Virus record (IMG/VR): IMGVR_UViG_3300040856_002589
Span: 1 to 34,926 of that record
Source of the DNA: a virus
Length of the DNA: 34,926 bases
Direction: 5' to 3' (one strand)
Of this stretch, positions 19,456-32,823 are shown one piece after another. Every line of letters starts with the position of its first letter. Position 1 is the stretch's first letter. The position numbers and the translations under genes are program-made. Below the pieces are notes generated by a model. The model was not told the DNA's origin. It worked only from the letters and a program-made list of their open reading frames with translations, and did not search any database.

Positions 19456-20088
19456 TTATCTACCAAGAACCCAATTTTCACCAGGACATTCTATTGATAA
19501 TTTATTATTTCCTTTACCATCATTCCACCATTTTTTACCATAGTGAGAATGATTTTCTCCAGTGTATTTACCTTTTTTTACTTCACTTTGTTTTCTTCTA
19601 GTTTCTTCTGAAAGAGGTTTTCCTTTCTTTTTTATACTTATTTTTTTCCTAGTTTCTTCTGAATGAGATTTACCATAAAAATGATTGTTTACTCCTTTAT
19701 TTGCTTCACTATTTTTTCGTCTATGCTCTTCAGATTGTTTTCTACCATAACTAGGATTATTTTCACCTTTCATCATTTCACTATGTCTTCTTTTAAATTC
19801 TTCACTCTTCAAGGAACCAGAAGCACCTTCACCACCATTAGTCCTATTTCTCAATATTCCAGTTCCTAAATCTTTCCTACCAAGAACTGAAATCATATAC
19901 TCTTCGTGATTGAATGCTTCCTCTTCTGTCAAATTTTGTTTAAGAAATATAATTTTGGATTTATCTTTTGGTTTTTTTATTTTTCTATTAGAAGAGTAAA
20001 TTCTATCTTTAACTCCTTTACCAATATAGTAAGGAGTTCCATCTTCACGCAGGTATGCGTAAGTATAAAATATACTAGTGTCTTTCAT
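19456..20088 (-). CDS. GIY-YIG homing endonuclease with NUMOD3 repeats
   Basis: 210 residues. Residues 7-95 hold the GIY-YIG domain: FYTYAYLREDGTPYYIGKG with catalytic Arg in KDRIYSS and Glu/Asn in TNGGEG. Residues 110-190 have four to five NUMOD3-type DNA-binding repeats (SEEHRRKNSEANKGVNN and similar). SegA-like free-standing homing enzyme located between the porin and a structural gene. Preceded by copy 1 of the structured element at 20089-20187. Confidence 0.93.
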   Translation of the reverse strand: MKDTSIFYTYAYLREDGTPYYIGKGVKDRIYSSNRKIKKPKDKSKIIFLKQNLTEEEAFNHEEYMISVLGRKDLGTGILRNRTNGGEGASGSLKSEEFKRRHSEMMKGENNPSYGRKQSEEHRRKNSEANKGVNNHFYGKSHSEETRKKISIKKKGKPLSEETRRKQSEVKKGKYTGENHSHYGKKWWNDGKGNNKLSIECPGENWVLGR

Positions 20089-20187
20089 CTGCTCTTAAAT
20101 TGGTTCGCAATACTATTTATAAAAGAAAAGAGGGCATTTCTGCCCCCCAATCTCTACCTTAAAGATGCGAACCAATTAAGGCATTTT
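20089..20187 (-). promoter_or_regulatory. Endonuclease leader element, copy 1
   Basis: Outer arms TGCGAACCAATT (20166-20177) and AATTGGTTCGCA (20098-20109) are perfect complements. Between them are a terminator (GGGCA/TGCCC with GAAA loop, 20132-20145, then T-rich) and a late box TATAAATA (20121-20114). The 5' arm can itself fold as CCTTAA/TTAAGG. The 3' arm ends beside the AAGAG ribosome site of the endonuclease gene. See findings for the comparison with copies 2 and 3. Confidence 0.75.
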
Positions 20188-20195
20188 TATTTATA
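20188..20195 (-). promoter_or_regulatory. T4-type late promoter box
   Basis: TATAAATA on the minus strand between the porin stop and element copy 1. Confidence 0.5.
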
Positions 20196-20197
20196 CC

Positions 20198-21661
20198 TTA
20201 GAACTTAAAGGTTGTTTGTAAAATTCCTCCCCAGTTGGAAGAGTTACCAGCAAGACGCTGGTTGTCACTACCGTAGATGATAGCAGGAGTGACACTGATG
20301 TTATCAGACACTTGATACTTGTAGAAGATTTCAAGCAGAGTGGACTTCTCAAGGTTCTCACCAGTAGGTGCCTGACCGATAGCAACACCAGCAGAGTTAC
20401 CATCAACAAAAACATCATCCCAAGTGAGACCTGCCATCCAGGATTGACTATCAGTAGCAGAACTAGGAGTGCCACTTACAGTATTCCAACCATAACCAGC
20501 AGATACGGAAGGAATCCAACCACTTTCAAGTGGTTGCCAATATGCGTTGATGGCATAACCATTGGAGGTTTGACCAGGAACCAGAGTACCAGAAGCACCG
20601 TTTAGACCGTTGTAGGTGCGAACACGAGTGCCTTCAGTGCCATAACGATAACCAAATGCGATACCATAGTTATCACCACGGTAACCGATTTGTGCTAGAG
20701 TATTGAGAGCACCAGACTCATCAAACTCACCAGTGGCACTGTTACCACCATCTTGTGCGATGTAGTTTACACCAGCAACGATACCGTTTTTGCCGTTATA
20801 CTGGATACCACCACCAGCACCAGTTGCCTTGTTATAAACACCAGGAGTACCTGCTACTTGGAAGAAGTCAAGAATCTTGGAGTTATAAGCAGAAGGAATC
20901 CACGACATCTCTGTATTACGAACCAGAGCACCTGCGGTAAGAGTTACACTATCACCAACAGGGAACTGGTAATACAGACGATCAACTACGACTTCATTGC
21001 CACTATCACCAACGGTGTTATCTGCCTTATCCAGTTTGAACAAGGAAGAACTAGAACCGAAGGGATTGCTACTGAAGTTGGCAGAACGCAGACGAGTGCG
21101 GAGCAGATCCTTACCAGTGAATGAAGTATCGAAGTTCAGTCGAACATCATAGTTGAAAGCAGTGTGGGTAATGTCACCACCTTTGGTTTCATAGTCATCA
21201 ACACCACCAATTACGAAGTTTGCTTCACCACGCAGTTTGGTAGTGGTAGAGAACTGGGTTGCTTCAAGTTCACTAACTTGTGCTTCCAGACCATCTACAC
21301 GACCCTTAAGAACAGCAAGTTCTGCTTCAAACTCTTTTAGAAGTGCTTTGAGTTCATCAGTAACTTCAGTTACACGGTCAAGGCAAGCATTTAGAAGTGC
21401 TGCTGCCTCATAACGAGTCATAGCACGAGCACCACGGAATGTACCGTTAGGGTAACCAGCAACACATCCGTAACGCTCTACGAGGTTGCTGAGTGCCTGA
21501 TATGCCCAGGAAGTGGGCTCAACATCAGAAAATTGAGTAACACTTACTACTTGTTCTTGTGAATATTGATTGACTCCATCAAGATTAAGATCTGCAGCAA
21601 TCGCAGCTGGAGCAACCACACCTAGAGCAACAGGAGCGAACATCAGATGTTTTAGTTTCAT
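20198..21661 (-). CDS. Cyanobacterial SLH-domain outer-membrane porin (OprB/Som family)
   Basis: 487 residues, full length. Residues 1-23 are a signal peptide (HLMFAPVALGVVAPAAIAA). Residues 42-95 form an SLH domain (FSDVEPTSWAYQALSNLVER, GCVAGYPNGTFRG). Residues 98-132 are coiled coil. Residues 135-487 are a beta-barrel ending in Phe (GGILQTTFKF). In cyanobacteria these are the main outer-membrane channels, anchored to peptidoglycan by the SLH domain. The gene is host-like in base and codon use and has its own promoter. In a phage it might replace or mask the host receptor, or change uptake. Confidence 0.93.
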   Translation of the reverse strand: MKLKHLMFAPVALGVVAPAAIAADLNLDGVNQYSQEQVVSVTQFSDVEPTSWAYQALSNLVERYGCVAGYPNGTFRGARAMTRYEAAALLNACLDRVTEVTDELKALLKEFEAELAVLKGRVDGLEAQVSELEATQFSTTTKLRGEANFVIGGVDDYETKGGDITHTAFNYDVRLNFDTSFTGKDLLRTRLRSANFSSNPFGSSSSLFKLDKADNTVGDSGNEVVVDRLYYQFPVGDSVTLTAGALVRNTEMSWIPSAYNSKILDFFQVAGTPGVYNKATGAGGGIQYNGKNGIVAGVNYIAQDGGNSATGEFDESGALNTLAQIGYRGDNYGIAFGYRYGTEGTRVRTYNGLNGASGTLVPGQTSNGYAINAYWQPLESGWIPSVSAGYGWNTVSGTPSSATDSQSWMAGLTWDDVFVDGNSAGVAIGQAPTGENLEKSTLLEIFYKYQVSDNISVTPAIIYGSDNQRLAGNSSNWGGILQTTFKF

Positions 21662-21693
21662 AAAATCTTTTTGTTTGTACTATAGAACAAAAT

Positions 21694-21720
21694 GTTAAGA
21701 ATTACAACAGAACTCTTAAC
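21694..21720 (-). repeat. Inverted repeat at the porin mRNA 5' end
   Basis: GTTAAGA / TCTTAAC, thirteen-base loop, starting about three bases after the predicted start site. Confidence 0.5.
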
Positions 21721-21729
21721 GAAGTATTT

Positions 21730-21758
21730 AGTATAAGGCACTGCCAAAAATTTGTCAA
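21730..21758 (-). promoter_or_regulatory. Sigma70-type porin promoter
   Basis: Minus strand TTGACA (21758-21753), 17 bases, TATACT (21735-21730); leader about 60 bases. The -35 overlaps the end of the glycosyltransferase gene upstream. Confidence 0.8.
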
Positions 21759-22558
21759 GTGTCTTGCTTGGATGGTTCGGTAATCCGACCAAGATACGGA
21801 TCGAAAGAAGTTATTTGGTCTAATGTGAAATTAGCTCCCATTTGTTGCCAAAAATTTAGGATTCCATTATAACTGTTCTTATGGAAAATTTCTACATGAT
21901 CAGCATGTATAGTTGAACCCAACTCAATCTTATACAAGAACATTGGAGTAGCATAAGTACATCCAGAATTATAGATCAAATCATCAGCAACAGGACGAGG
22001 TTTAACGCCATTATCAAGTTTATACTTATCGCCACGAACATGATACTTGATCAATTTCTCTGCATGGTGTCTTGTAATAACATAACAAGCAGTAGAAAAA
22101 TCATTAACAAATCTAGTGTGAATAGGCACTACAATATCACCAGTACAAATAATTGCAAGCTGAATTACATCCCAACAATATGGAACGCGAGCAATAAAAT
22201 CAGCCCAAGTAAAGTTCCAACAATGAGCAGTGCTCATGTCACAATCGTCTTCCATGATAATCGCATATGGACTATCTGAAGTATGATACCAATGATTGAT
22301 TGCTTTCAAGTGAGATGTTACGCAACCAATTTCTCCCGATGTCATCATATCAGGATATTTTCCTTTTATGATATCACTAAGATCATCATCTCTACCATCA
22401 TAAGCAGAGATACGAGTATAGTCTTCAATTTCCCAGTATTTAAATTGGTCTTCCATATATTGCCATCTTTCTGGCTGTCCATCGAGATTGATATAATAAA
22501 CTGGACCAAAATTTTTTAGTTTGTATGCTGATTTATTTCTATCCATAAGAATATCCAT
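21755..22558 (-). CDS. Glycosyltransferase family 25-like
   Basis: 267 residues (or start at 22543). GT25 pattern: VYYINLDGQPERWQYMEDQF near the start, GEIGCVTSHLKAINHWY, AIIMEDDCD with the metal-binding acidic motif, and DFSTACYVITRHHAEKLI. The family adds galactose or similar sugars to lipopolysaccharide or glycans. Last gene of the glycan operon; it starts inside the stop region of the gene upstream. Confidence 0.85.
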   Translation of the reverse strand: MDILMDRNKSAYKLKNFGPVYYINLDGQPERWQYMEDQFKYWEIEDYTRISAYDGRDDDLSDIIKGKYPDMMTSGEIGCVTSHLKAINHWYHTSDSPYAIIMEDDCDMSTAHCWNFTWADFIARVPYCWDVIQLAIICTGDIVVPIHTRFVNDFSTACYVITRHHAEKLIKYHVRGDKYKLDNGVKPRPVADDLIYNSGCTYATPMFLYKIELGSTIHADHVEIFHKNSYNGILNFWQQMGANFTLDQITSFDPYLGRITEPSKQDT

Positions 22559-23147
22559 TCACATTATATGTAACATGAGAAGAAAGATGTATTTTTCCTC
22601 CTTTATCGCTCAATTGCTTCAAAAACATAAAATCTTCAGCATTATCATTCTCAAAAAAAACTTGATTATTGTCAATAAACTCTTTTTTGGCACAAAAAGA
22701 AATTCCAACAAAGTTTTGAGCTAAGTGATTCATACCAAAAGGAGGAACTACTTTTTGATTATTTTTGTCATATCGCATACGAAATACACAACAATCAAAA
22801 TTTACTTTATTTTTTTCCAACTCAAATATTTCAACATAGTACTGCGAAAGCGTATCATCATCATCAACAAACGCGACCCAATCAATTTCTTCGGTGACAT
22901 TTCTAATTATTGCATTACGAACTTGTCCGGCGTTTCCATGGAATTCCTTTTCGCTTCCCAGCTTTTTTCCAAAATAAAAATAATTAATTCTATTATCATC
23001 TACCAAAATTGAAGGATCAATTTCGCTTTGTTTTTTTCCATCAAACCCAACAAAACACTTCCAATTTGGATTACTTTGGCCCACAAGTGAGTTAAGTGTA
23101 TTTCTTAAAGTTGGTCTACCAACACTAGGAACAACAAACCCTATCAT
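22539..23147 (-). CDS. Glycosyltransferase family 2-like
   Basis: 202 residues from the ATG at 23147, which overlaps the upstream TGA as ATGA. GT-A fold signs: FVVPSVGRPTLRNTLNSL, WKCFVGFDG, NAIIRN and WVAFVDDDDTLSQYY with the DxD metal site. Donor sugar cannot be told. Confidence 0.85.
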   Translation of the reverse strand: MIGFVVPSVGRPTLRNTLNSLVGQSNPNWKCFVGFDGKKQSEIDPSILVDDNRINYFYFGKKLGSEKEFHGNAGQVRNAIIRNVTEEIDWVAFVDDDDTLSQYYVEIFELEKNKVNFDCCVFRMRYDKNNQKVVPPFGMNHLAQNFVGISFCAKKEFIDNNQVFFENDNAEDFMFLKQLSDKGGKIHLSSHVTYNVNGYSYG

Positions 23148-23854
23148 CCCAATACTCCATATTTCTTCATGCAATATTCTGACTCTTTCTCCATAATTTC
23201 TTCTTTATTCAAAATTCCACTAGAAATAGAATTGCCATGTATTCTATTCGTAACTAAGATATCATTATAGTACATTGGCTCTCCATACTTAAGTCTCATA
23301 CCATAATAGTAATCTAAATCCATAAAATAAACAAGATCTTCATCAAAAGGTAGACTCGCAAAACTTTTGAATGCGACCACAGATGGAGAACTGATGGTAT
23401 TAACGCCTTTCAATAAATCGTCATTAAATTTTGGATATAGATCCCAAAAAAATGAATTTCCATGATCTTTAGTGTGGTTAGTACCACTTAGTAACCACAT
23501 ACGATCAGAATCGGAAAGTGAATAGTAAATTTTTTCCAATGCTTCGTCGTCGTAGAAAAAATCATCCTGGAACATAATTTTAATTATTTCTCCAGAACAA
23601 TTATCAATAGCATTATTTAAATTTGCGGGACTATTTCCTATACTATCATTATTCTTGACATATTTTATTTCAAACTTATCATCAAACTCTTTTACTTTAT
23701 TCAATACTTTATTATCACTACTATGATCAGAAATCACGACTTCAAAATCTTTAAAGTATTGAATTTCAATTGTACTAAGAAGATCATCGAGGAAAACATC
23801 CCCAAGACCATTGAATTCCCAAGTAGGAACAGCGATTGATAATTTTATTGACAT
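23144..23854 (-). CDS. Glycosyltransferase family 2
   Basis: 236 residues. KLSIAVPTWEFNGLGDVFLD, DFEVVISDHSSDN, NLNNAIDNCSGEIIKIMFQD DFF: standard GT2 start and acidic motif (QDDF). Overlaps both neighbours by short stretches. Confidence 0.88.
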   Translation of the reverse strand: MSIKLSIAVPTWEFNGLGDVFLDDLLSTIEIQYFKDFEVVISDHSSDNKVLNKVKEFDDKFEIKYVKNNDSIGNSPANLNNAIDNCSGEIIKIMFQDDFFYDDEALEKIYYSLSDSDRMWLLSGTNHTKDHGNSFFWDLYPKFNDDLLKGVNTISSPSVVAFKSFASLPFDEDLVYFMDLDYYYGMRLKYGEPMYYNDILVTNRIHGNSISSGILNKEEIMEKESEYCMKKYGVLG

Positions 23855-24615
23855 GGATAATTTTTAACCTGAATTGGATCATATTCAACTTCTTGTGAAA
23901 TATACTCATCCCACCAAGAAATCATTTCCTCTTTTGACATATTACCAAGTTTTCTCCAATGACTACCAATGAAATTGGGAAAGTCAGTAGTATCATATAC
24001 TTTTTTTCCATTCAAAACTTTCTTTCCAAACTGAGAAAAACTCCTATACTGATAATGACGAATTCCAATCAAATCATATACTCGTTTACCTTTATGATTT
24101 GAGACATCGTGATTCCCCATCTCCAAATAAAAACCAGGATACTTATTAAATGCTACAGCTGGAAAAGAATCAGAGTTCTTTTTTTTGTATGCCATAGAAA
24201 TTATTGGATTATTTGATACATTATCATTTTTAGTTGGTATATAATCTGTCGATGTTGCAACAAAAATATCTCCATCAGTTTCCCTCAACAGAGTTCCCAA
24301 AGTCTTGGATTTATCTTTAGAATACCACACCTCATCGGCATCAATCGGAATAACTATGTCAGCTCCCATTTTGAAGCAAGTGGCGCACCACAAATTCATC
24401 TTATCTGATTGATAATATGCAAATTCATTATCATCTATAATTGTAATATTTTTATATTTTTCCGACAATTCAACCAGAAGTTCTTTTGTTCCATCAGTCG
24501 AGAGATTATTTGCAATATAAAAGTGATCAATATCTTGTGTTTGTAGATATTCTATATTGTATCCAATAATGTCTATTTCATCTTTTACCATCATTACCAC
24601 AAAAATTTTTTTCAT
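23845..24615 (-). CDS. Glycosyltransferase family 2-type (Glyco_tranf_2_4-like)
   Basis: 256 residues. MKKIFVVMMVKDEIDIIGYN, FYIANNLSTDGTKELL, DIVIPIDADEVWY (acidic motif) and FYLEMGNHDVSNHKG fit the Glyco_tranf_2_4/GT92-like group. Four-base overlap with the gene upstream. Confidence 0.85.
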   Translation of the reverse strand: MKKIFVVMMVKDEIDIIGYNIEYLQTQDIDHFYIANNLSTDGTKELLVELSEKYKNITIIDDNEFAYYQSDKMNLWCATCFKMGADIVIPIDADEVWYSKDKSKTLGTLLRETDGDIFVATSTDYIPTKNDNVSNNPIISMAYKKKNSDSFPAVAFNKYPGFYLEMGNHDVSNHKGKRVYDLIGIRHYQYRSFSQFGKKVLNGKKVYDTTDFPNFIGSHWRKLGNMSKEEMISWWDEYISQEVEYDPIQVKNYPCQ

Positions 24616-25271
24616 ACGCCACCTATTATATCATAAACATGTCTACCATCTCCAATGTGACTAACTGATTTATTAGTGAGAGAAACGGTAAATAACTCTT
24701 TTTTTTTGTATATTATCCCAACATCTTTTTCGCTTTTTCCTGCTATTGGCTTTACCAAATTGTAAGCGGAAAATCGAAATAAATTTGGATTATAAGTGAA
24801 ACCTGGCCAACCATTATATCCAGGAATTAACACTTGAAATTCAGATATTGTTCCCTCTTCATATACATCATCGCAAACTGGATGTGGACTGTCAGATCGA
24901 AATGTTACTTGAACTACATTATCATATTTTTCTAAAATCGGAAGGCTTCTATCAATGAAGTCGCCATCACTAAAATCCCAGTCGTCCTCACAATGAAAGA
25001 CATACTCTGTTTTTACCTTTGAGTATGCTTTATCTATACTTGCTGCTTGTCCTAATTTTTCTTCATTCAGCAACAAATCCCACCCAAGCAAGTATCCAGA
25101 TTTATTCTCTCTTTCCAAAGAAGAAAAGCACTGAACATCTGTGGAATCATCTATTAAAATTTTATTTGATATTTTGTCTAGGGTTTCTTTTGGAATTGAT
25201 TGTATTGTCCTCTCTAGTAAATCGAGTCTATTACAACTTGTCAATACCATGGTCACATTATTGTACATCAT
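24612..25271 (-). CDS. Glycosyltransferase family 2-like
   Basis: 219 residues. VTMVLTSCNRLDLLERTIQS, KILIDDST, EKLGQAASIDKAYSKVKTEY, VFHCEDDWDF. GT-A fold with an acidic EDDW motif. Overlaps the GT25 gene upstream by four bases. Confidence 0.85.
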   Translation of the reverse strand: MMYNNVTMVLTSCNRLDLLERTIQSIPKETLDKISNKILIDDSTDVQCFSSLERENKSGYLLGWDLLLNEEKLGQAASIDKAYSKVKTEYVFHCEDDWDFSDGDFIDRSLPILEKYDNVVQVTFRSDSPHPVCDDVYEEGTISEFQVLIPGYNGWPGFTYNPNLFRFSAYNLVKPIAGKSEKDVGIIYKKKELFTVSLTNKSVSHIGDGRHVYDIIGGV

Positions 25272-26029
25272 TTTAAGCCTCCATCATTTTTCTTTTGTAT
25301 TTCCCAAAATTTCTTCCATGTTGAGTCAAGTTTATCATACACATCATTTCTTTTTATGGCTTCGTCTCCAAAAAATCTACCTTCAAATAATGCTCTATCG
25401 TCATACAAAGCAATATGGTCGGAATAGATTCCACATAGATCAGAATAGCTTGGTCTCTGCCAAGCTAAATGTGGTCTAATGATGTAACAATTCACTTTAC
25501 TCTGAATACTAGCAAATAATGAATCATTAGTATCATTCATTTTTGATAGAGATTCTATAGACAAATCATATACTGTGTTTTTTACTGCGTAGCAATGTAA
25601 AGCAAGGGAGTGCGTAACTTTAAAAACATTTTTATTAATTTCTTTCAATGATCCATTTGCCCATGGATTATTCCCAATATGATTTCCGCCAAATAAAATT
25701 ATATCCCAATCATCTGGAATTCTATCATATATTTCTGGAAATTTTGAATTTAATCCACTATCAAATTTTACATCATCTTCAAGAATCAATACATTATCTA
25801 AATTCAAATCCTTTGCTTTTTGTATTACACCTCGATGGGAATAAATTGCCCCAAGTTGTCCCGGATTTAAACCGGGAATTTGATCTAGCTCGTTGCCATC
25901 AAAAGCAGAATATCTTTCGACTTCTAGTTTAAAAGTATCAAATTCTAAAATAGATTCTTCCCACCTATCAGTCCTTCTTTCTAAGTTAATGCAGTATATT
26001 TTTTGAAAGAAGTCATTTAAAGTTTTCAT
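25268..26029 (-). CDS. Glycosyltransferase family 25-like
   Basis: 253 residues. KIYCINLERRTDRWEESILE, LNPGQLGAIYSHRGVIQKAK, NVLILEDDVKFD and DWDIILFGG fit GT25. Second GT25-like gene in the operon. Overlaps the upstream gene by four bases. Confidence 0.87.
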   Translation of the reverse strand: MKTLNDFFQKIYCINLERRTDRWEESILEFDTFKLEVERYSAFDGNELDQIPGLNPGQLGAIYSHRGVIQKAKDLNLDNVLILEDDVKFDSGLNSKFPEIYDRIPDDWDIILFGGNHIGNNPWANGSLKEINKNVFKVTHSLALHCYAVKNTVYDLSIESLSKMNDTNDSLFASIQSKVNCYIIRPHLAWQRPSYSDLCGIYSDHIALYDDRALFEGRFFGDEAIKRNDVYDKLDSTWKKFWEIQKKNDGGLK

Positions 26030-26841
26030 AGTATCGTCCAGCCATCACAATATATATCTTTTGTATTGTAGTGAGAATTTATTCCACTAAACCAACTACT
26101 AGGAGCAATAACTTTTTTGCTCTCTGCTAGCCAAGCCCCCCACCAGGAATATGAACTATTAGCAATGATATGATAATCGCAAAAAGTCATTAAGCACATA
26201 TCAATATATGTATCATTTTCTTCGGAAATTAAAAATCTATCGTCCGAAAACAAACTTTGAGACTTCGCCCAAGATGGGTCATCAGAAAAAATAATTACAG
26301 TTGAGCTAGTGTCTAATAAGTTTAACGCAGTTTCATAATAACTCAACTCTTGAACAGGGTGATTTGGATTATATACATAATCTCCTCTTCTGATATGCAA
26401 AGATATTACTTCACTACTACACAAGGAGTCAAAACAATTTTTGGCAATATCATATATTTCTTGTTTAAACTGAAAATCTTTTCTAATTTCAGATTCAATG
26501 TTTTTGAAATATTTTTCCGATTGCAAATAACCATTAAGACTCACATTGTCTCTACAATTATCAAAAAGATTTTCATCAAAATGAAAGTGTTTTTCTTCCA
26601 ATACTTCTCCACCAATAAACCCAAAATTTTTAGCGGAAGACAACTCAAATGCTTTGTATATTGATGTGTCGTTATTTCTAACATTTGGATCAAGTTTACC
26701 AAATGCATCTTCTGGTGGGATGATCCAGTCAAAGTCATTGTTTGACGCAATTCCTCTCAATGAAGCATACTGGAACATCTGATTTCCAATTCTACCCAAA
26801 TTACCTAACAGATCAAATCCTATCATTGTCCTCACCACCAA
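26026..26841 (-). CDS. Fucosyltransferase-like, glycosyltransferase family 11
   Basis: 271 residues. LGRIGNQMFQYASLRGIASN at the start, VISLHIRRGDYVYNPNHPVQ (HxRRGDY donor motif), IIFSDDPSWAKSQ, and ANSSYSWWGAWLAESKKVIA P at the end: all blocks of the alpha-1,2-fucosyltransferase family GT11. It suggests that the operon makes a fucose- or similar-capped glycan. Overlaps the methyltransferase gene by 29 bases, and an internal start at 26826 (MIGFDLLGNLG) would reduce this. Confidence 0.92.
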   Translation of the reverse strand: MVVRTMIGFDLLGNLGRIGNQMFQYASLRGIASNNDFDWIIPPEDAFGKLDPNVRNNDTSIYKAFELSSAKNFGFIGGEVLEEKHFHFDENLFDNCRDNVSLNGYLQSEKYFKNIESEIRKDFQFKQEIYDIAKNCFDSLCSSEVISLHIRRGDYVYNPNHPVQELSYYETALNLLDTSSTVIIFSDDPSWAKSQSLFSDDRFLISEENDTYIDMCLMTFCDYHIIANSSYSWWGAWLAESKKVIAPSSWFSGINSHYNTKDIYCDGWTIL

Positions 26842-27448
26842 ATTTTACATAAAATGCATCCCCCCAAATATTTCCGGACCAATCAGTTTCTACCCGTTTC
26901 ATATTATATTTTCCTAGGAAATCATCAATTTGTTCTATGTATGCATTGTTTTCATATACTTCATCTCGATTGACTTCGCAATAAACATAGTCAATATATT
27001 TTAGTGTATTTTCCGCTCCCTTCAAAACTTCCAACTCATATCCCTGAACATCCATGTTTATAAAATTATACTCAGTATATCCAAAATCATCCAATTTTTT
27101 CATTTCAACTTCTTCTACACCAGTAAAATGGACATTAGGGTGTTGAATAAGATGCTTCTTTGGTCTCAATATAGAACTACTCTGCAGTTCGTTATCACTC
27201 AAATGCATGATTACTTTTTTATTGTCATTTCCGAGTGCTAGCTGATGTCCAATAATATTGGCATTCACTCTGGACATGTTTGATTTTAAAATTTCAAAAT
27301 TTAAATCGAGTGGCTCAAATAGAACCATATTAGTAACATCGTTTGAAATGTAGTCAAGTATTTCTTCTCCGTGATGGGCACCAACATGAATAATTCCCGT
27401 CACATTTAAATTATACTTATTTTTTAAATCTCTAAATCCCAACAGCAT
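26813..27448 (-). CDS. FkbM-family methyltransferase
   Basis: About 211 residues from the ATG at 27448; the upstream in-frame TTG is part of the -35 box. IIHVGAHHGEEILDY (SAM-binding), NMVLFEPLDLNFEILKSN, NFINMDVQGYELEVLKGAEN are the FkbM motifs. These enzymes O-methylate sugars and other small groups. First gene of the glycan operon; leader of only about 15 bases. Confidence 0.9.
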   Translation of the reverse strand: MLLGFRDLKNKYNLNVTGIIHVGAHHGEEILDYISNDVTNMVLFEPLDLNFEILKSNMSRVNANIIGHQLALGNDNKKVIMHLSDNELQSSSILRPKKHLIQHPNVHFTGVEEVEMKKLDDFGYTEYNFINMDVQGYELEVLKGAENTLKYIDYVYCEVNRDEVYENNAYIEQIDDFLGKYNMKRVETDWSGNIWGDAFYVKFGGEDNDRI

Positions 27449-27469
27449 AGAATACCAAAACAAAAAACT

Positions 27470-27499
27470 ATTATACCAAAAAAGAGGAGCTGTTGTCAA
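27470..27499 (-). promoter_or_regulatory. Full-consensus sigma70 promoter of the glycan operon, nested in a terminator
   Basis: Minus strand TTGACA (27499-27494), 18 bases, TATAAT (27475-27470). As at 18828-18862, the -35 lies in the terminator hairpin and the T-run fills the spacer. Confidence 0.85.
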
Positions 27500-27505
27500 C
27501 TCCTC
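27478..27505 (-). terminator. Intrinsic terminator before the glycan operon
   Basis: Stem GAGGAGTTG / CAGCTCCTC (one G-U), four-base loop, six T. It ends the transcript of the HNH gene at 27565-27993. Confidence 0.85.
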
Positions 27506-27564
27506 TAGTTAGGGTTATCATACGCGCCACCAATTCTTTAACTGGAAATTGGAAACCAGGCATC

Positions 27565-27993
27565 TTATCCGTTTTTATATTGTGGAGACCAAGAAGGTAG
27601 ATTAGTGCCTTCTTTTTCATACTGCTCCATCAACTTTTCTTGTTCCTCCAAAGAAAGATTTTTGAAGTAATGCCAAGCAGCATTCGTTTGAAGTTGCGAT
27701 TTATCGCGGTGACAAGACTTACAAAGAAGTTGAAGATTATTCATTTCATTTTTTATTCTATCCCAAGAACAAGAATAAAGACATTTTCTATCTTTTTTGA
27801 GTCCAGGATTAATATGATCTATTTCTAGACAATCAGTTGTACCACATTTACAACACTTGGAACCAAGATTTTGTATGATAAAGTTTTTCTTTTCTTGTCT
27901 TAGCTTAATGTTAATTTCTTTGGATTCTTTATTTAATTTGTCTTTATTTTTTAAATAGTGCTCTCTTCTTGATTCTGGACTAGACCAACCCAT
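27565..27993 (-). CDS. HNH homing endonuclease
   Basis: 142 residues. Basic helical N-terminus (SSPESRREHYLKNKDKLNKE), then CCKCGTTDCLEIDHINPGLK, NEMNNLQLLCKSCHRDKSQL: two CxxC pairs, catalytic DH, Asn and His. A late box (28022-28015) lies 22 bases upstream. No NUMOD repeats. It lies between unrelated genes, typical of a mobile endonuclease. Confidence 0.9.
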   Translation of the reverse strand: MGWSSPESRREHYLKNKDKLNKESKEINIKLRQEKKNFIIQNLGSKCCKCGTTDCLEIDHINPGLKKDRKCLYSCSWDRIKNEMNNLQLLCKSCHRDKSQLQTNAAWHYFKNLSLEEQEKLMEQYEKEGTNLPSWSPQYKNG

Positions 27994-28014
27994 TTTACCC
28001 CATATAACCTAAAT

Positions 28015-28022
28015 TATTTATA
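28015..28022 (-). promoter_or_regulatory. T4-type late promoter
   Basis: TATAAATA on the minus strand, 22 bases before the HNH start. Confidence 0.6.
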
Positions 28023-28065
28023 TGTAGTAAAAGTTCTACTTGACATTTAAGAAATGACAAGAAAC

Positions 28066-28272
28066 CTACTTTGCAGCAGAAACAAAATTATTAATTGCTT
28101 CTGCTTGATTAAGCACATCATCTAAAGTCGGAAAATCTGGATAATCCATTTTAACCGAATTTTCATAATTTTCATTCCAACAACGAGCAGTATCATATTC
28201 AATACTGAACTTATCATTCAGCATATTATATGCCTGCTTGAAAATTTCAAACCGAAGTTCATAAGGTGTCAT
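28066..28272 (-). CDS. Conserved small phage protein
   Basis: 68 residues: MTPYELRFEIFKQAYNMLND..., ending PTLDDVLNQAEAINNFVSAA K. Widely conserved pattern in T4-like phages that I recognise, without known role. AGGAG lies eight bases before the ATG. Confidence 0.8.
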   Translation of the reverse strand: MTPYELRFEIFKQAYNMLNDKFSIEYDTARCWNENYENSVKMDYPDFPTLDDVLNQAEAINNFVSAAK

Positions 28273-28320
28273 CGTTTTACTCCTGTGTGTTTGTGTGTTA
28301 ATTGGGTCATTTTGACTCCA

Positions 28321-28345
28321 CCAGTACTGTTAACGCCCATCCGTG
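28321..28345. repeat. Imperfect direct repeat, left copy
   Basis: The sequence ccagtactgt to atccgtg here matches 28582-28606 at 21 of 25 positions. Each copy covers or follows the 3' end of a small gene (28330-28563 and 28610-28834). Confidence 0.6.
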
Positions 28346-28563
28346 GCGGAAAGATGGATTAATCTCGTAATCTCAATAAAAGCATAAAATCCACAAATTG
28401 TCACCGAATCCCACATTTTAAAATAAACAAAAGAGGGCAACAATAGTACTCCGGCAATAAGTTTAATGATCAATCCAAGGCGCTCATCTCCCCATAAGAT
28501 TATATAATAACCAATAATGAGAAGTGCATTACCAAAATACCGAAGTATTGTTGTTTTATCCAT
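28330..28563 (-). CDS. Small three-span membrane protein
   Basis: 77 residues with hydrophobic segments at about 6-24 (ILRYFGNALLIIGYYIILW), 29-46 and 50-68. Inner-membrane protein of unknown function. The gene is flanked by the 25-bp direct repeats, as if inserted or duplicated. Confidence 0.65.
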   Translation of the reverse strand: MDKTTILRYFGNALLIIGYYIILWGDERLGLIIKLIAGVLLLPSFVYFKMWDSVTICGFYAFIEITRLIHLSATDGR

Positions 28564-28581
28564 AAGGGGGGGTTGCTACCG

Positions 28582-28606
28582 ACCAGTGCTGTTATAGTCC
28601 ATCCGT
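28582..28606. repeat. Imperfect direct repeat, right copy
   Basis: Second copy of the repeat at 28321-28345, 261 bases away. Confidence 0.6.
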
Positions 28607-28609
28607 GAC

Positions 28610-28834
28610 TTAGGCCGGAACATCAACTTTAAGATCTTCACATAGAAGACTCAAAATAATTTCATAATCGGCTTCTGATTCTTGATAAAATTCTACTCCT
28701 TGTTCTTCATAAAACTTTTTAACTTTTTTGAAAAGTTTCGGTTGATCAAATTCTAGATCAATTTCTCGATTTGCAGCACGAGTAAGAGTATAGATGGATT
28801 TACGAAATTTTGAAGTTAGTGAAAAATCAGACAT
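28610..28834 (-). CDS. Conserved small cyanophage protein
   Basis: 74 residues from the ATG at 28834 (MSDFSLTSKFRKSIYTLTRA ANREIDLE...). The frame is open to the TTG of the -35 at 28885, upstream of the predicted start site, so the ATG at 28834 is chosen. Helical, charged; no known function. Confidence 0.75.
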   Translation of the reverse strand: MSDFSLTSKFRKSIYTLTRAANREIDLEFDQPKLFKKVKKFYEEQGVEFYQESEADYEIILSLLCEDLKVDVPA

Positions 28835-28856
28835 TGGTTGAATTAAATTCGTTCTT

Positions 28857-28885
28857 ATTATAGAGGAAAGTCTTGTGGGTGTCAA
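28857..28885 (-). promoter_or_regulatory. Full-consensus sigma70 promoter
   Basis: Minus strand TTGACA (28885-28880), 17 bases, TATAAT (28862-28857), 15-20 bases before the ATG at 28834. Confidence 0.8.
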
Positions 28886-28907
28886 GAAGAGGAGGGATTA
28901 AAGAATC

Positions 28908-29117
28908 TTATGATGCCTCTTCATGATCTGTATGAATTTTTATGAGGTCGTCATCAGAACAAGTTCCACCAAAAACCTCTACTACCTCATTATATGGAAC
29001 CATAACTGCGTTTCCATGATCACTTGTTATGATAAATGATTCTCCCTTTTCGACTCTCTCCATTAAAGTGTCAAAGTCGGCCTGAAATTCTTCTACAGTA
29101 AACGATTGCATTGTCAT
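28908..29117 (-). CDS. Phd/YefM-type antitoxin-like protein
   Basis: 69 residues (or 67 from 29111). MQSFTVEEFQADFDTLMERV EKGESFIITSDHGNAVMVPY: the N-terminal DNA-binding fold of Phd/YefM antitoxins. The C-terminal toxin-neutralising part is short and acidic (DDDLIKIHTDHEEAS). No toxin gene adjoins it. It may neutralise a host toxin or act as a repressor. Transcribed after tRNA-Pro. Confidence 0.85.
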   Translation of the reverse strand: MTMQSFTVEEFQADFDTLMERVEKGESFIITSDHGNAVMVPYNEVVEVFGGTCSDDDLIKIHTDHEEAS

Positions 29118-29135
29118 AAAGTTAGAGTTTTATAA

Positions 29136-29206
29136 TCCGAGTGGAAGGTACTGCCCCCTCTTCGCTGCGTCCCAAACGCAGAGTTATACTTTTCTACTAC
29201 ACCCGG
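29136..29206 (-). tRNA. tRNA-Pro(UGG), degenerate
   Basis: Acceptor CCGGGTG/CACTCGG and anticodon arm CTGCG-TTTGGGA-CGCAG are perfect (anticodon TGG at 29174-29172). The D-loop (AAAAGTA) lacks GG and the T-loop (GGCAGTA) lacks TTC, so the usual elbow contact is missing. No encoded CCA. A full-consensus promoter ends ten bases upstream. Confidence 0.75.
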
Positions 29207-29215
29207 ATGTCTATC

Positions 29216-29244
29216 ATTATATAGCATGGGCATAAGGCTGTCAA
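29216..29244 (-). promoter_or_regulatory. Full-consensus sigma70 promoter of tRNA-Pro
   Basis: Minus strand TTGACA (29244-29239), 17 bases, TATAAT (29221-29216). The TGA in the -35 is the stop codon of the gene at 29241-29354. Confidence 0.8.
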
Positions 29245-29354
29245 TAGTCTTCTTCGTCTTCATAAGAACTGGGCTCATGAAAGAGTTCTATCATTTTTTG
29301 CTCTAGAACTCTTTGTTGTAATTCCTCTATGTCTTTTTCTGTAATCTCGATCAC
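29241..29354 (-). CDS. 37-residue acidic peptide, GTG start
   Basis: GTG overlaps the preceding TGA (GTGA) with GGAGG just upstream. Product MIEITEKDIEELQQRVLEQK... ends SSYEDEEDY. Helical, acidic. Confidence 0.55.
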   Translation of the reverse strand: MIEITEKDIEELQQRVLEQKMIELFHEPSSYEDEEDY

Positions 29355-29500
29355 TTTCCTCCGTTAAGAAACTTTTCTAATGGATCTTTTCTTGTTTTAG
29401 CTATTTCAACTGCTCTCTTATAAAACATGTTGTCTGTGTTACCAGAAGCTTCAAATGTGGCTTTGATTTTTAGCCAGTTTTCGTATGTGTGTTGATCCAT
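29351..29500 (-). CDS. 49-residue hypothetical protein
   Basis: ATG at 29500, MDQHTYENWLKIKATFEASG..., ending KFLNGGK. Follows a promoter-like pair (29525-29552). Coupled to the next micro-gene. Confidence 0.6.
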   Translation of the reverse strand: MDQHTYENWLKIKATFEASGNTDNMFYKRAVEIAKTRKDPLEKFLNGGK

Positions 29501-29524
29501 TGAATTGGTATCGTATTGATACTA

Positions 29525-29552
29525 ATTATACTGGATAAACCTTCGATTGCAA
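29525..29552 (-). promoter_or_regulatory. Probable sigma70-type promoter
   Basis: Minus strand TTGCAA (29552-29547), 16 bases, TATAAT (29530-29525). -35 less perfect than most in this window. Confidence 0.5.
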
Positions 29553-29569
29553 CCTTATGTTAGGATTTC

Positions 29570-29941
29570 TTAATATCCGTGGTTCATTATGGTCTTTGTA
29601 TACTTCCTTAAAATTTCTCCTGCCTTGGAATTAGCTTCATTTTCGCATTCACTTCCAGTTTCGCCACTCATTTCTTTGCCGCTTTGTTTCTGATGATAAT
29701 GAACTAACTCGTGTCCCAAGGTGCGGTACACATCTAATGGATGTCTTTGGGCAGTCTGAATTTTTATTTCATCAGTGCCAAGGTTAAAACAACCAAAAGT
29801 CTTATTATCGATCGAAAACTTCGGATCATCAATGACAATAACTTTGGGTAAGGAAGCTAATCCAAGCTCATCTTTGACGAAGTTCATAAAATCTTTAATT
29901 TGAACCTTTTTAGATTCAGTTAGAAACTCTTTAAATCTCAT
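29570..29941 (-). CDS. Zinc metalloprotease-like protein with capsid-targeting-like N-terminus
   Basis: 123 residues. HELVH at 77-81 is a gluzincin/minigluzincin HExxH zinc site; the third ligand may be a Glu in SECENEANSKAGEIL. The N-terminus MRFKEFLTESK closely resembles the capsid-targeting peptides of T4-like internal proteins, which end in (L/I)xE, the cut site of the prohead protease (here LTE). This suggests packaging in the head and injection into the host. Protease call good, targeting is inference. Confidence 0.78.
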   Translation of the reverse strand: MRFKEFLTESKKVQIKDFMNFVKDELGLASLPKVIVIDDPKFSIDNKTFGCFNLGTDEIKIQTAQRHPLDVYRTLGHELVHYHQKQSGKEMSGETGSECENEANSKAGEILRKYTKTIMNHGY

Positions 29942-29956
29942 GAGTTTTTTAGATAT

Positions 29957-30208
29957 TTATCGGACTTCAAAATCAAGTCTACGAACTTTTCTTTGTCTTC
30001 TGGCTTCCTGCCACATAATATCTTCATTCGTCAAGACTTTTGTGGATTCTTTCTGCGTAAGAGAATTCAACATCACAATTTTCGAAAGATCTACAGCAGA
30101 AATCTTATCTTCTTTGATTGTTGCCATATTAGGACAACCACAAGACTTTGATTGTCCTGGTTTTGCTGTCACTTCGGTGTTACACTGTTTGCATCTTATT
30201 TTTAACAT
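29957..30208 (-). CDS. Zinc-ribbon-like conserved protein
   Basis: 83 residues. CKQCN at 6-10 and CGCPN at 23-27 give a four-Cys metal site; then KISAVDLSKIVMLNSLTQ and a basic C-terminus (WQEARRQRKVRRLDFEVR). Conserved cyanophage pattern; probably nucleic-acid binding. Preceded by terminator and late box. Confidence 0.8.
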   Translation of the reverse strand: MLKIRCKQCNTEVTAKPGQSKSCGCPNMATIKEDKISAVDLSKIVMLNSLTQKESTKVLTNEDIMWQEARRQRKVRRLDFEVR

Positions 30209-30238
30209 TTTGATTCATTATGAATATTAGTGTTTTAT

Positions 30239-30246
30239 TATTTATA
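30239..30246 (-). promoter_or_regulatory. T4-type late promoter at a terminator end
   Basis: TATAAATA starting two bases after the T-run of the terminator at 30248-30275; drives the zinc-ribbon gene late. Confidence 0.65.
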
Positions 30247-30247
30247 C

Positions 30248-30275
30248 TAAAAAAGCCCACATAATGTGAGCTTTT
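30248..30275 (-). terminator. Terminator after the tRNA pair
   Basis: Stem AGCTCACAT / ATGTGGGCT (one G-U) followed by six T. Confidence 0.8.
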
Positions 30276-30290
30276 GGTTCTTATGATTAG

Positions 30291-30369
30291 TTTCCCTTCG
30301 ACCGAGAATCGAACTCGGACTCCAAGTGCATTATCTGCCTGTCCTGACCACTGGACTACCGAAGGGAAA
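30291..30369 (-). tRNA. tRNA-like RNA with abnormal anticodon arm
   Basis: Cloverleaf core at 30294-30365: acceptor CCTTCGG/TCGAAGG (7th pair G-U), D-stem GTCC/GGAC, T-arm CCGAG-TTCGATT-CTCGG. The 17 bases expected to form the anticodon arm (GGCAGATAATGCACTTG) do not pair, so no anticodon can be given. The acceptor helix continues to 11 pairs (30359-30369 with 30291-30301). Six bases after tRNA-Gly. Confidence 0.65.
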
Positions 30370-30371
30370 AA

Positions 30372-30443
30372 AGCGTCTCATCGAATTTGAATCGATCCCG
30401 CCAGAGTGGAAATCTGGAATGCTACCGCTGACACCAGAGACGC
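30372..30443 (-). tRNA. tRNA-Gly(UCC)
   Basis: Acceptor GCGTCTC/GAGACGC, anticodon arm CCAGA-TTTCCAC-TCTGG (anticodon TCC), T-arm ATCGA-TTCAAAT-TCGAT, D-loop with GG. Canonical 72-nt tRNA. Read from promoters at 30454 and 30500. Confidence 0.93.
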
Positions 30444-30453
30444 AATAAAAGCA

Positions 30454-30482
30454 ATCATAACTTATTTATGGTTGCTTGTCAA
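30454..30482 (-). promoter_or_regulatory. Sigma70-type tRNA promoter
   Basis: Minus strand TTGACA (30482-30477), 17 bases, TATGAT (30459-30454); -10 ends eleven bases before the tRNA-Gly 5' end, so the primary transcript would need little 5' trimming. Confidence 0.75.
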
Positions 30483-30499
30483 GTGTTTTGTTGGGTCTT

Positions 30500-30529
30500 A
30501 TTATATCAGGTGGGGGTGGGTGGTGTCAA
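30500..30529 (-). promoter_or_regulatory. Second sigma70 promoter upstream of tRNA-Gly
   Basis: Minus strand TTGACA (30529-30524), 18 bases, TATAAT (30505-30500). The -35 contains the stop codon of the HNH gene at 30526-31329. Confidence 0.75.
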
Positions 30530-31329
30530 GTGTTCCTAGTTCTTAGGCAATCAAATGGAATATAATTGGGGACATATTTTTTAAACAACATTATTAAATT
30601 TTCTTGTGTTTTGTCATAACTATATTTACTTCTTATAGTCTGGAAACCTTCTGTCAGATATGTATCATAAAGTTGACTATAATATTCTATTTTCGCTTTA
30701 AGTTCATTTTCCTTTTCTTGTTTTCTTTTTTCTTTTATGTTTAACTTTTCAATATAACCATCAAAATCTATTATTCTTCCAAGACACCAACCATCAGGAA
30801 TAGGTTCTCCTTTGATTATTCTAGTATTTTCTTTCTTTTCTAAATTATAAATCCAAACTTTGCCATACTGTGAATTCGTTTCTCCTTGTTGGTGGTTTAT
30901 TTCTTTTAGTTTTTTCTTTTGTCTTTCTCTAGCTTCTGGAGTTCTTGCTGCTTCGACTGCTTTTGGCTGAATTTCTTTCAGTTTCTGCACATGCTCTTCT
31001 CTATTCTTTTCCCAACTTTCTAATCTCTTGGCTATTATTTCGGCTCTAAATTCTGGATCATTTTTCAGCTTTTCTCGAACTATGCCACTTCCTATTTTGC
31101 CAAATATTTTGAATTTTTCCGCCAAAAATTCTTGTTCGCTTATTTGGCCAGATAATCCTCTCCATGCTACATAATCTTCTATGTTGTTCCACAATTGAAA
31201 ATTACAAAAATGATACATTGCGTGTTGAGTTACGGTAACTTCAACTAGGTTTTCCTTAGTATCTGTTCCCCCCATATACCTTGGGATGATATGATGCTTA
31301 TGCGTAAACGAATTATTTTGGCAATCCAT
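30526..31329 (-). CDS. HNH homing endonuclease (paralogue of 31782-32717)
   Basis: 267 residues. HNH core near the N-terminus: THKHHIIPRYMGGTDTKENL VEVTVTQHAMYHFCNFQLW. Then QPKAVEAARTPEARERQKKK and YGKVWIYNLEKKENTRIIKG, DNA-binding-like repeats shared with its paralogue; the C-terminal 80 residues are unique. Sits between tRNA genes, with element copy 2 upstream. Likely selfish, with a target near tRNA genes. Confidence 0.92.
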   Translation of the reverse strand: MDCQNNSFTHKHHIIPRYMGGTDTKENLVEVTVTQHAMYHFCNFQLWNNIEDYVAWRGLSGQISEQEFLAEKFKIFGKIGSGIVREKLKNDPEFRAEIIAKRLESWEKNREEHVQKLKEIQPKAVEAARTPEARERQKKKLKEINHQQGETNSQYGKVWIYNLEKKENTRIIKGEPIPDGWCLGRIIDFDGYIEKLNIKEKRKQEKENELKAKIEYYSQLYDTYLTEGFQTIRSKYSYDKTQENLIMLFKKYVPNYIPFDCLRTRNT

Positions 31330-31332
31330 TTC

Positions 31333-31428
31333 TTATGCTCTTAAGTTGATTGGCAATATTATTTATACAAGAAAAGGAGGATTTCGCCTCCCCTTCTTTA
31401 CCTTAAAGACGCCAATCAACTAAGGCAT
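31333..31428 (-). promoter_or_regulatory. Endonuclease leader element, copy 2
   Basis: Outer arms GCCAATCAACT (31411-31421) and AGTTGATTGGC (31344-31354) are perfect complements although the sequence differs from copies 1 and 3. Terminator GGAGG/CCTCC (31376-31391), late box TATAAATA (31367-31360), inner CCTTA/TAAGG hairpin. The 3' arm ends at the AAGAG ribosome site. Confidence 0.75.
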
Positions 31429-31439
31429 TATTATTTAGC

Positions 31440-31525
31440 AGGCTCCGGATGAATTGAACATCGACCTCCTCCTTCCGGCGTTATTTAAGGAGACTGGCTT
31501 AGAAGGCCAGAGCCGGTACGGAGCC
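31440..31525 (-). tRNA. tRNA-Arg(UCU)-like RNA lacking a D-arm
   Basis: Acceptor GGCTCCG/CGGAGCC and anticodon arm CTGGC-CTTCTAA-GCCAG (anticodon TCT, 31503-31501) are perfect; the T-arm is GATG-TTCAATT-CATC (four pairs). Only seven bases (TACCGGC plus T) replace the D-arm, and a 26-base hairpin (CTCCTT/AAGGAG, 31469-31492) is inserted before the variable loop. Its loop has GCCGG, complementary to CCGGC in the residual D region. Functional status unknown. Confidence 0.7.
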
Positions 31526-31541
31526 CAATAAGAACCCAACA

Positions 31542-31752
31542 ATCATAAGATACAAATCTTAAGTTGTCAAGTATTTTGGCTGGTTATCTAGATCAACTAG
31601 ATTTCCAGAACTCAACAATCATAACATATTTATGTTTGGCTGTCAAGTGTTTTGTATTTTACCTGATAATCATAACATATGTATGTTTGGTTGTCAAGTA
31701 GTTGTTTTGTTGTTTACTTGATTAGTATACAATGGCTTCTTATGGTTGTCAA
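31542..31752 (-). promoter_or_regulatory. Array of four tandem sigma70 promoters
   Basis: Four TTGACA elements at 31570-31565, 31646-31641, 31697-31692, 31752-31747, each 17 bases from its -10: TATGAT (31547-31542), TATGAT (31623-31618), TATGAT (31674-31669), TATACT (31729-31724). The two middle units share nearly the same spacer. The array lies between two HNH genes and directly before the tRNA-Arg-like gene. Nothing else is visible in this stretch. Confidence 0.8.
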
Positions 31753-31781
31753 GGGTCTTGTGACGGTTGTGGGATTGATAC

Positions 31782-32717
31782 TCATTTTATTCTTATTCTC
31801 CTAGAAGTGTCGATACCTCTATTTTTTTGATAAGTTGTAAGTGGCCCAGCATTACAAACATGACCAGTTTCTAGACACATCCATCTTTGCGAAGATGAGT
31901 TTTTCCCTCCTTTAGAAGCCAATTCTTTTCTTTCTTCTGTAGTTTGCGCATGAATGCCAAGCTTATTTTCATATGAATATTTTCCATTTTTACTATATTG
32001 TTCTCTGTCTATATTATTAACAAATTTCTTACTCCTTCCTCTATAATATCCTTCAGGGATAGGGTCATCTTTGGATATTAGGTATGAATGATCACCATCA
32101 GTAATAAAAATCTTACCATAAGTAGAAGTATTCTCTCCACAAGGATATTCTTCTAAAAATACTGCCCCAGGTCTAAAACCTTCTGGAATGGGATCTCCTT
32201 TCTTTATTCTATGGGAACCTTCTATAGTTCCATCGGTAATCCACATAGTTCCATACTGCGGATTCTTTTCTCCTTTCAGATGTCCCCTTTCCTTGAATGT
32301 ATTGATCTTCTTTTCTATTGCTTCTGGAGTTCTTGCTGCATCAACTGCTTTTGGTTGATTTATTATACATCTTTCAATTGCTTCTTCTTTATGTGGCGAG
32401 TTGTGAAACCCTTGTTTACATTTTTCTTTATGTTCTCTTAGATTTTCTGGATCCTTGAACTTTTCTTTTAGAACTTCAGTACCTTTCTTACTGCCAAGTT
32501 TCATTGCTTCAATTTTTGCTTCATCTGCAGTAATTTGGCCGGATAACATTCTCCAGGCAATTCTGTCCTGTTCGTTGTTCCACAATTGGAAATTACAAAA
32601 ATGATACATTGCATGTTGAGTTATAGTAACTTCAACTAAATTCTCTGCGACATCTGTGCCACCCATATATCTTGGAATAATATGATGCTTATGGGTGCGT
32701 TCGTTTTCCCTACACAT
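31782..32717 (-). CDS. HNH homing endonuclease (paralogue of 30526-31329)
   Basis: 311 residues. N-terminal HNH core nearly identical to its paralogue: THKHHIIPRYMGGTDVAENL VEVTITQHAMYHFCNFQLW. Then repeats of the type YGTMWITDGTIEGSHRIKKG DPIPEGF and YGKIFITDGDHSYLISKDDP, and a C-terminal part with RKELASKGGKNSSSQRW. Preceded by element copy 3. Located just after tRNA-Leu. Confidence 0.92.
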   Translation of the reverse strand: MCRENERTHKHHIIPRYMGGTDVAENLVEVTITQHAMYHFCNFQLWNNEQDRIAWRMLSGQITADEAKIEAMKLGSKKGTEVLKEKFKDPENLREHKEKCKQGFHNSPHKEEAIERCIINQPKAVDAARTPEAIEKKINTFKERGHLKGEKNPQYGTMWITDGTIEGSHRIKKGDPIPEGFRPGAVFLEEYPCGENTSTYGKIFITDGDHSYLISKDDPIPEGYYRGRSKKFVNNIDREQYSKNGKYSYENKLGIHAQTTEERKELASKGGKNSSSQRWMCLETGHVCNAGPLTTYQKNRGIDTSRRIRIK

Positions 32718-32719
32718 AG

Positions 32720-32815
32720 TTCTGCTCTTGAATTGGTTCGCACATCTATTTATACAAGAAAGGGAGGTAAAAATACCTCCCTTTCGCCTTAAAGACGCGA
32801 ACCAATTAAGGCACT
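32720..32815 (-). promoter_or_regulatory. Endonuclease leader element, copy 3
   Basis: Outer arms GCGAACCAATT (32797-32807) and AATTGGTTCGC (32731-32741). Terminator AAAGGGAGGTA/TACCTCCCTTT (32759-32784, loop of four), perfect 11 pairs; late box TATAAATA (32754-32747); inner CCTTAA/TTAAGG. Confidence 0.75.
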
Positions 32816-32823
32816 TTTATTTA

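Follow-up and report, generated by a model that had tools for sequence, protein, structure and literature searches.

Many homing endonuclease genes (HEGs) of cyanomyoviruses are preceded by a leader element that may carry their own repressor. We consider it fairly probable, judging from the DNA, that this element is a cassette moving with the HEGs, and that the upstream of its two promoters yields a small antisense RNA, encoded on the same strand as the HEG, which would block HEG translation. The element was found in a stretch of viral DNA of 34,926 nucleotides (nt) (IMG/VR record IMGVR_UViG_3300040856_002589, positions 1 to 34,926), hereafter referred to as the window. It is about 95 nt long and is present there in three copies, all on the minus strand, each of which lies directly before one HEG.

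Anatomy of the element

The sequence-only reading of this DNA had placed three HEGs behind leaders of a common plan. Its coordinates were confirmed, and a blastn search with copy 1 as the query retrieved copies 2 and 3 at E-values of 9e-23 and 1e-18. The outer arms pair perfectly in every copy (TTGGTTCGC with GCGAACCAA in copies 1 and 3, TTGATTGGC with GCCAATCAA in copy 2), including the compensated difference that had been pointed out in copy 2, and the 5′ arm can indeed fold on itself (GCCUUA/UAAGG). All parts of the plan as originally described are present, but an upstream late-promoter box, found in all three copies, had been overlooked. From 5′ to 3′, the element consists of a late-type box, five bases, a stem-loop (GCCUUA...), an intrinsic terminator, TATAAATA, five bases, the 3′ arm, AAGAG and the ATG. 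We designate the upstream late-promoter box P_up, and the downstream one, located just before the HEG mRNA, P_down. P_down is an exact TATAAATA in all three window copies, while P_up, which is always found 5 nt before the 5′ stem-loop, reads TATAAATA in copy 1, GCTAAATA in copy 2 and CATAAATA in copy 3. The two boxes agree with the late consensus, N[A/C]TAAATA.

P_up statistics were obtained from 122 elements defined by their inverted repeat alone. TAAATA is present upstream of the 5′ arm in 120 of them, against a background of 1.4%, and is preceded by A or C in 115 of these 120; among boxes of the same contigs, 15-55% of N[A/C]TAAATA are located near ordinary gene starts, as opposed to 0-4% of N[G/T]TAAATA. 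The predicted +1 is a purine in 115/120 cases for P_up and in 117/120 for P_down. By these three tests (presence, preceding base and purine start), the upstream box is a predicted late promoter. Near gene starts of these phages, CTAAATA boxes show an enrichment similar to that of AATAAATA, a range wider than the published cyanophage late promoter, NATAAATA (PMC2984593).

Transcription starts were predicted, not mapped, by assuming T4-type spacing with five bases between box and start; the spacing is inferred from T4, in which the late box occupies the -10 position (PMC7892883). With such starts, the P_up transcript would begin at the 5′ stem-loop and stop at the terminator, yielding an RNA of about 55-60 nt, and the HEG mRNA would begin exactly at the 3′ arm, with a median leader of 21 nt from +1 to AUG. 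The terminator is strongly conserved across elements, and transcripts coming from upstream or from P_up should therefore mostly stop before the 3′ arm. Complementarity of the HEG mRNA to the 5′ stem-loop is 99-100% at positions +1 to +6 and about half at +12, while at -1 it is 69% and farther upstream it is at background; it is thus strongest at the mRNA 5′ end and declines towards the ribosome site. The mRNA 5′ end faces nucleotides 8-16 of the predicted small RNA, mostly in or beside its loop. Upon cofolding, positions +1 to +8 are intermolecularly paired at 98.6%, pairing reaches -7 from the AUG at the median, and the median binding energy is -13.1 kcal/mol. Folded alone, the mRNA leaders of HEG1 and HEG3 have almost no structure, and that of HEG2 folds weakly. 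Sequence for a short stem-loop RNA is thus present in the element, with complementarity to the mRNA from its 5′ end into the start region.

Distribution, arm covariation and association with HEGs

More than 100 distinct copies exist outside the window, and the pattern of terminator plus promoter, with the arms left unconstrained, gave at least 120 matches in IMG/VR. The IMG/VR contigs are mutually related, so that such counts are not independent, and E-values and p-values should be taken as guides. Exact inverted repeats flank 165 of the 852 ATAAATA boxes at 171 loci, compared with 4/728, 20/808 and 6/649 for three permuted boxes scanned in the same way; a fourth permuted box, TAAATAA, shares bases with the true box and retrieves the elements already found. 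The inverted-repeat matches around ATAAATA boxes comprise 63 arm sequences.

Arm-pairing energies were calculated with a descriptor lacking any requirement for complementarity, which yielded 148 elements, 109 of them distinct. All 109 pair: the mean duplex energy is -21.9 kcal/mol with their own partners, -10.7 when arms are paired with the partners of other elements, and -9.7 after shuffling. In a fixed register, own partners form 8.69 Watson-Crick pairs out of 9, and swapped partners 4.62. The sequence-only reading expected covariation beyond the three window copies, and it is extensive, with 73 different arm strings using all four Watson-Crick pair types (three or four types at each of positions +3 to +7, and all four across +5 to +9) and with near-identical elements that differ by compensated double changes, such as C-G to G-C. 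Non-canonical arm pairs are G-U in 40 cases and A-C in 5 (p 8e-8 if independent, although the sequences are related), an asymmetry that points to RNA of this strand and disfavours the view that template-switch correction of a DNA palindrome is the sole cause. The local 5′ stem covaries as well, with many variants besides GCCUUA/UAAGG (-6.8 kcal/mol for the own stem versus -4.1 for swapped ones). Within the window, copies 1 and 3 share their arms and would cross-pair at -22.3 kcal/mol, compared with -12 to -14 for copy 2.

The carriers are freshwater-type viruses of cyanobacteria, cyanomyoviruses. Six elements are found in the isolate S-SRM01, two in B23 and nine in a single 136-kb contig, while the pattern had no match in eight marine or estuarine isolates (Syn9, S-PM2, S-N03, RN05-S, Sf-CH5, ACG-2014f, S-CBWM1 and S-B68). 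A match in T4 was taken as chance. Rfam gave no match above the gathering score and none by E-value thresholds, the best below-threshold E-value being 0.005. No description of the element was found in the literature searched, and the S-SRM01 paper never uses the words “promoter” or “terminator”.

The element occurs only before HEGs, which belong to GIY-YIG subfamilies, HNH and a few others. In S-SRM01, the genes behind all six elements are of HNH, NUMOD3 or homing endonuclease type; one is annotated only as hypothetical and another is misnamed initiation factor 2. PHROG places 65 of 91 diverse downstream proteins in its homing endonuclease family, and NUMOD3 is present in 39; the odd ones are mostly HNH-like, others being NUMOD3, or weakly PD-(D/E)XK- or Endo VII-like, with one (L110) left unassigned, and no non-HEG gene was found behind the element among the downstream genes examined. 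Association with endonuclease genes elsewhere, on which the sequence-only reading had staked its proposal beforehand, is therefore strict both in S-SRM01 and in this protein set. The label “translation initiation factor 2” is carried by three GIY-YIG/NUMOD3-type HEGs (S-SRM01 gp114, B23 gp45 and Sf-CH5 SfCH5_200) and is apparently a propagated misannotation.

Leader and nuclease type combine freely: of 49 arm cores, 17 are found before at least two HEG types, and many cores occur with each of the larger HEG types, which bears out the earlier suggestion that the element is not just part of one mobile gene. The 5′ boundary of the cassette is sharp at the box. For copy 1, an empty-type junction is found in L207 (porin, terminator, TATAAATA, next gene), and in the window the gene after HEG1 keeps its own box. 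We also considered a conserved late box as the 3′ end of the cassette and rejected it, since a box lies within 40 nt of only 25/126 HEG stops. Some elements have outlived their HEG: L016, L029 and L157 keep the first codons of a broken HEG, L098 keeps a few codons and L121 none. Such leaders without an intact HEG could be due to decay, or to retention of the small RNA.

The window contains six HEG-like genes, three of which follow the element (Table 1). The claim that one of these three is GIY-YIG and two are HNH stands by domain matches for HEG1 (NUMOD3, 1.5e-21, with the GIY-YIG motif YTYAYLR...YYIGKG seen by eye) and HEG2 (HNH, 1.2e-4). HEG3 has no Pfam match; it is HNH-type by its visible resemblance to HEG2, and it aligns with an annotated S-CBWM1 endonuclease. 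The element was not found at two other HNH genes of the window, 5889-6257 and 27565-27993 (-). In the psbA region (11753-13810, -), psbA is interrupted by a group I intron (RF00028, 12860-13112), and a PhotoRC-II RNA identified by Rfam lies upstream of psbA (13850-13941, -). A HEG-like gene with a helix-turn-helix domain follows psbA (11753-12451, -), in an arrangement resembling psbA/F-CphI of S-PM2; its leader consists of a terminator and TATAAATA, without the two-arm element. The P_up box of copy 2 is located directly 3′ of a tRNA-like sequence (31440-31526, -) with the anticodon loop CTTCTAA (Arg-TCT by eye), for which ARAGORN made no call, and that of copy 3 likewise follows a tRNA-Leu (32823-32910).

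Table 1. Positions of the three elements and their HEGs in the window
Feature	Position	Strand	Remarks
Copy 1 P_up box TATAAATA	20188..20195	-	Late-box rule N[A/C]TAAATA; predicted +1 at 20182 (T4-type spacing)
Copy 1 predicted small RNA	20124..20182	-	Stem-loop 20182-20156, terminator about 20150-20122; fold -22.5 kcal/mol, z -3.3
Copy 1 P_down box TATAAATA	20114..20121	-	Predicted mRNA +1 at 20108
Copy 1 3′ arm GCGAACCAATT, predicted HEG1 mRNA 5′ end	20098..20108	-	AAGAG ribosome site 20096-20092
HEG1, GIY-YIG/NUMOD3 homing endonuclease, 210 amino acids (aa)	19456..20088	-
Copy 2 P_up box GCTAAATA	31432..31439	-	Late-box rule; predicted +1 at 31426
Copy 2 predicted small RNA	31372..31426	-	Stem-loop 31426-31400, then terminator; fold -17.2 kcal/mol, z -1.6
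Copy 2 P_down box TATAAATA	31360..31367	-	Predicted mRNA +1 at 31354
Copy 2 3′ arm GCCAATCAACT	31344..31354	-	AAGAG 31342-31338
HEG2, HNH endonuclease, 267 aa	30526..31329	-
Copy 3 P_up box CATAAATA	32818..32825	-	Late-box rule; predicted +1 at 32812
Copy 3 predicted small RNA	32757..32812	-	Stem-loop 32812-32786, then terminator; fold -29.2 kcal/mol, z -6.8
Copy 3 P_down box TATAAATA	32747..32754	-	Predicted mRNA +1 at 32741
Copy 3 3′ arm GCGAACCAATT	32731..32741	-	AAGAG 32729-32725
HEG3, HNH-type endonuclease, 311 aa	31782..32717	-

A candidate antisense repressor and its alternatives

From the parts of the element, their positions, their covariation and their association with HEGs, all directly visible in the DNA, we infer transcription from both boxes at the predicted +1 positions, pairing in trans, a translational block and a dosage logic. 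P_up would drive the small RNA, composed of the 5′ stem-loop followed by the intrinsic terminator, and P_down, just past that terminator, would drive the HEG mRNA, whose short leader opens with the 3′ arm. The small RNA would pair first, through its loop, with the extreme 5′ end of the mRNA, and pairing would then zip through the opened stem-loop to the purine-rich ribosome site, blocking translation of the endonuclease. Since one DNA encodes both pairing partners, repression would be expected to increase with copy number: a rare HEG-bearing genome would express the nuclease, which would be quieted once most genomes carry the HEG. Occasional read-through RNA would be silenced in cis by the same arms.

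Action purely in cis, in the manner of T4, was the model initially put forward for this DNA. In it, the arms of read-through RNA pair and hide the ribosome site, and P_down transcripts, which lack the 5′ arm, are translated; P_up would then be incidental. This logic is established for I-TevI, I-TevII, I-TevIII, segB and Aeh1 mobE (PMC2988022, PMC3014915), and it is compatible with folding: in read-through RNA the arms pair with a probability of 0.99, the region from the ribosome-binding site (RBS) to the AUG is 62% paired, and for copy 1 the fold reaches -40.9 kcal/mol (z -5.9), so that in silico a longer transcript can hide the ribosome site while the P_down transcript cannot. We nevertheless find it an unlikely account, and not the best supported one, as it offers no reason for a P_up box at fixed spacing, for a conserved terminator placed where it should end read-through ahead of the 3′ arm, for a local 5′ stem-loop in competition with the long hairpin, or for complementarity that begins at mRNA +1 and fades in the direction of the RBS. 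None of these four features is seen in T4 leaders; they make sense if a discrete P_up RNA finds the 5′ end of the P_down mRNA.

A DNA-level module, in which the boxes and inverted repeats serve as recombination or protein-binding sites for insertion of the HEG cassette and covariation results from template-switch (quasi-palindrome) correction, as reportedly proposed for the PeSL promoter/stem-loop cassettes of T4-like phages, would agree with the sharp 5′ boundary and random flanks, with a cassette position next to a porin-like gene on one side and, on the other, a late gene that keeps its own box, as judged against L207, and with the shuffling of leaders among HEGs, but is quite improbable, given that 73 arm sequences exclude a single binding site, that the excess of G-U over A-C is strand- and RNA-specific, and that neither the arm edge at +1 nor its reach into the RBS has a DNA-level reason.

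Several observations weigh against the antisense RNA itself. The +1 positions, on which its geometry depends, are predicted from T4-type spacing, and the strong pairing of the arms in read-through RNA leaves room for a role in cis. T occupies the first box position in 19% of P_up boxes versus about 60% of gene promoters; lacking the T that favours strong late boxes, P_up may be weak. Both boxes look late, hence timing alone would give no switch. There is no excess of arm diversity within a genome (identical pairs, 2/87 within contigs versus 4/693 between them). Finally, 5′ halves without a linked 3′ half are almost absent. A DNA pattern of the 5′ arm alone found 36 stretches in IMG/VR, with a complete second half in all readable ones except L027, and when only P_up and the 5′ stem were specified, every real match had its 3′ half (22, plus L115, L302 and L304 with shorter arms). 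The only clear orphan, L027 1583-1680, has the upstream box, stem-loop and terminator, without a 3′ arm or HEG. With orphans nearly absent, trans action on other loci is not evident.

It is about an even chance that the elements form a large set of mutually distinct small RNA/HEG pairs, in which every cassette would encode an antisense small RNA of its own from a same-strand late promoter and the pairing sequence would act as a compatibility type, with dosage-dependent self-silencing and possibly cross-silencing of same-type HEGs from a co-infecting phage. Should the small RNA act in trans, common control is expected for HEG1 (GIY-YIG) and HEG3 (HNH), because copies 1 and 3 have the same arms, but not for HEG2. 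Free-standing HEGs are believed to persist only where their cost is kept low, and the controls known so far amount to a few separate cases in T4. A single RNA architecture, present with dozens of pairing sequences and exchanged between unrelated nucleases, would represent a common control of selfish genes in a phage group. It makes testable how fixed HEGs stay quiet and whether one HEG silences another in co-infection, and would provide a natural collection of compact antisense repressor pairs that are largely distinct.

Comparison with known systems

In T4, a late promoter located beside an RNA structure able to hide the ribosome site is found at HEGs or late genes (PMC2988022, PMC3014915). 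In the I-TevI, segB and e leaders that we read, a compact hairpin ending at the Shine-Dalgarno sequence/AUG has the promoter box as its 5′ strand. The likeness to I-TevI noted earlier therefore holds for the logic, i.e. a HEG behind a late promoter and, in silico, a longer transcript that can hide the ribosome site, but not for the anatomy, since the cyanophage box is not a hairpin strand at the Shine-Dalgarno sequence/AUG. These T4 leaders have no terminator, 5′ stem-loop, second promoter or separately promoted arm, all of which are present in or predicted for the cyanophage element; gene e has two tandem late boxes, yet its hairpin is still made from the box. Each T4 hairpin is also single, whereas the cyanophage element repeats one architecture with dozens of arm sequences.

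CfrI of the T4-like cyanophage S-PM2, linked to the HEG F-CphI (PMC2984593), shows a precedent for a HEG-linked antisense RNA in cyanophages. It is a different RNA, about 225 nt long and truly antisense, from the opposite strand, to psbA and the HEG. PeSL cassettes of T4-like phages (Arbiol 2010, Comeau 2014) are reportedly composite terminator-promoter motifs between genes, tied to modular shuffling; their promoters are said to be early, with no arms flanking the motif and no link to HEG leaders. Both boxes of the cyanophage element, in contrast, are late-consensus.

C4 of phages P1 and P7 is a same-strand antisense RNA located upstream of its target, with inverted repeats that pair over the ribosome site; it arises by processing of the transcript of its target, as part of a lysogeny switch. 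The cyanophage element differs in having a separate predicted late promoter and terminator, and HEGs as targets. In P1 and P7, C4 controls ant (PMC8201110). RNA-OUT of IS10 is likewise a short antisense RNA directed against the translation start of the mRNA for a mobile element's nuclease, acting by ribosome block in a copy-number-dependent manner (PMC5006887); it is transcribed from the opposite DNA strand, while in the cyanophage element both parts of an inverted repeat are on one strand, with the antisense arm upstream. By analogy, IS10 RNA-OUT and P1 C4 would appear nearer in mechanism to the cyanophage element than the T4 leaders.

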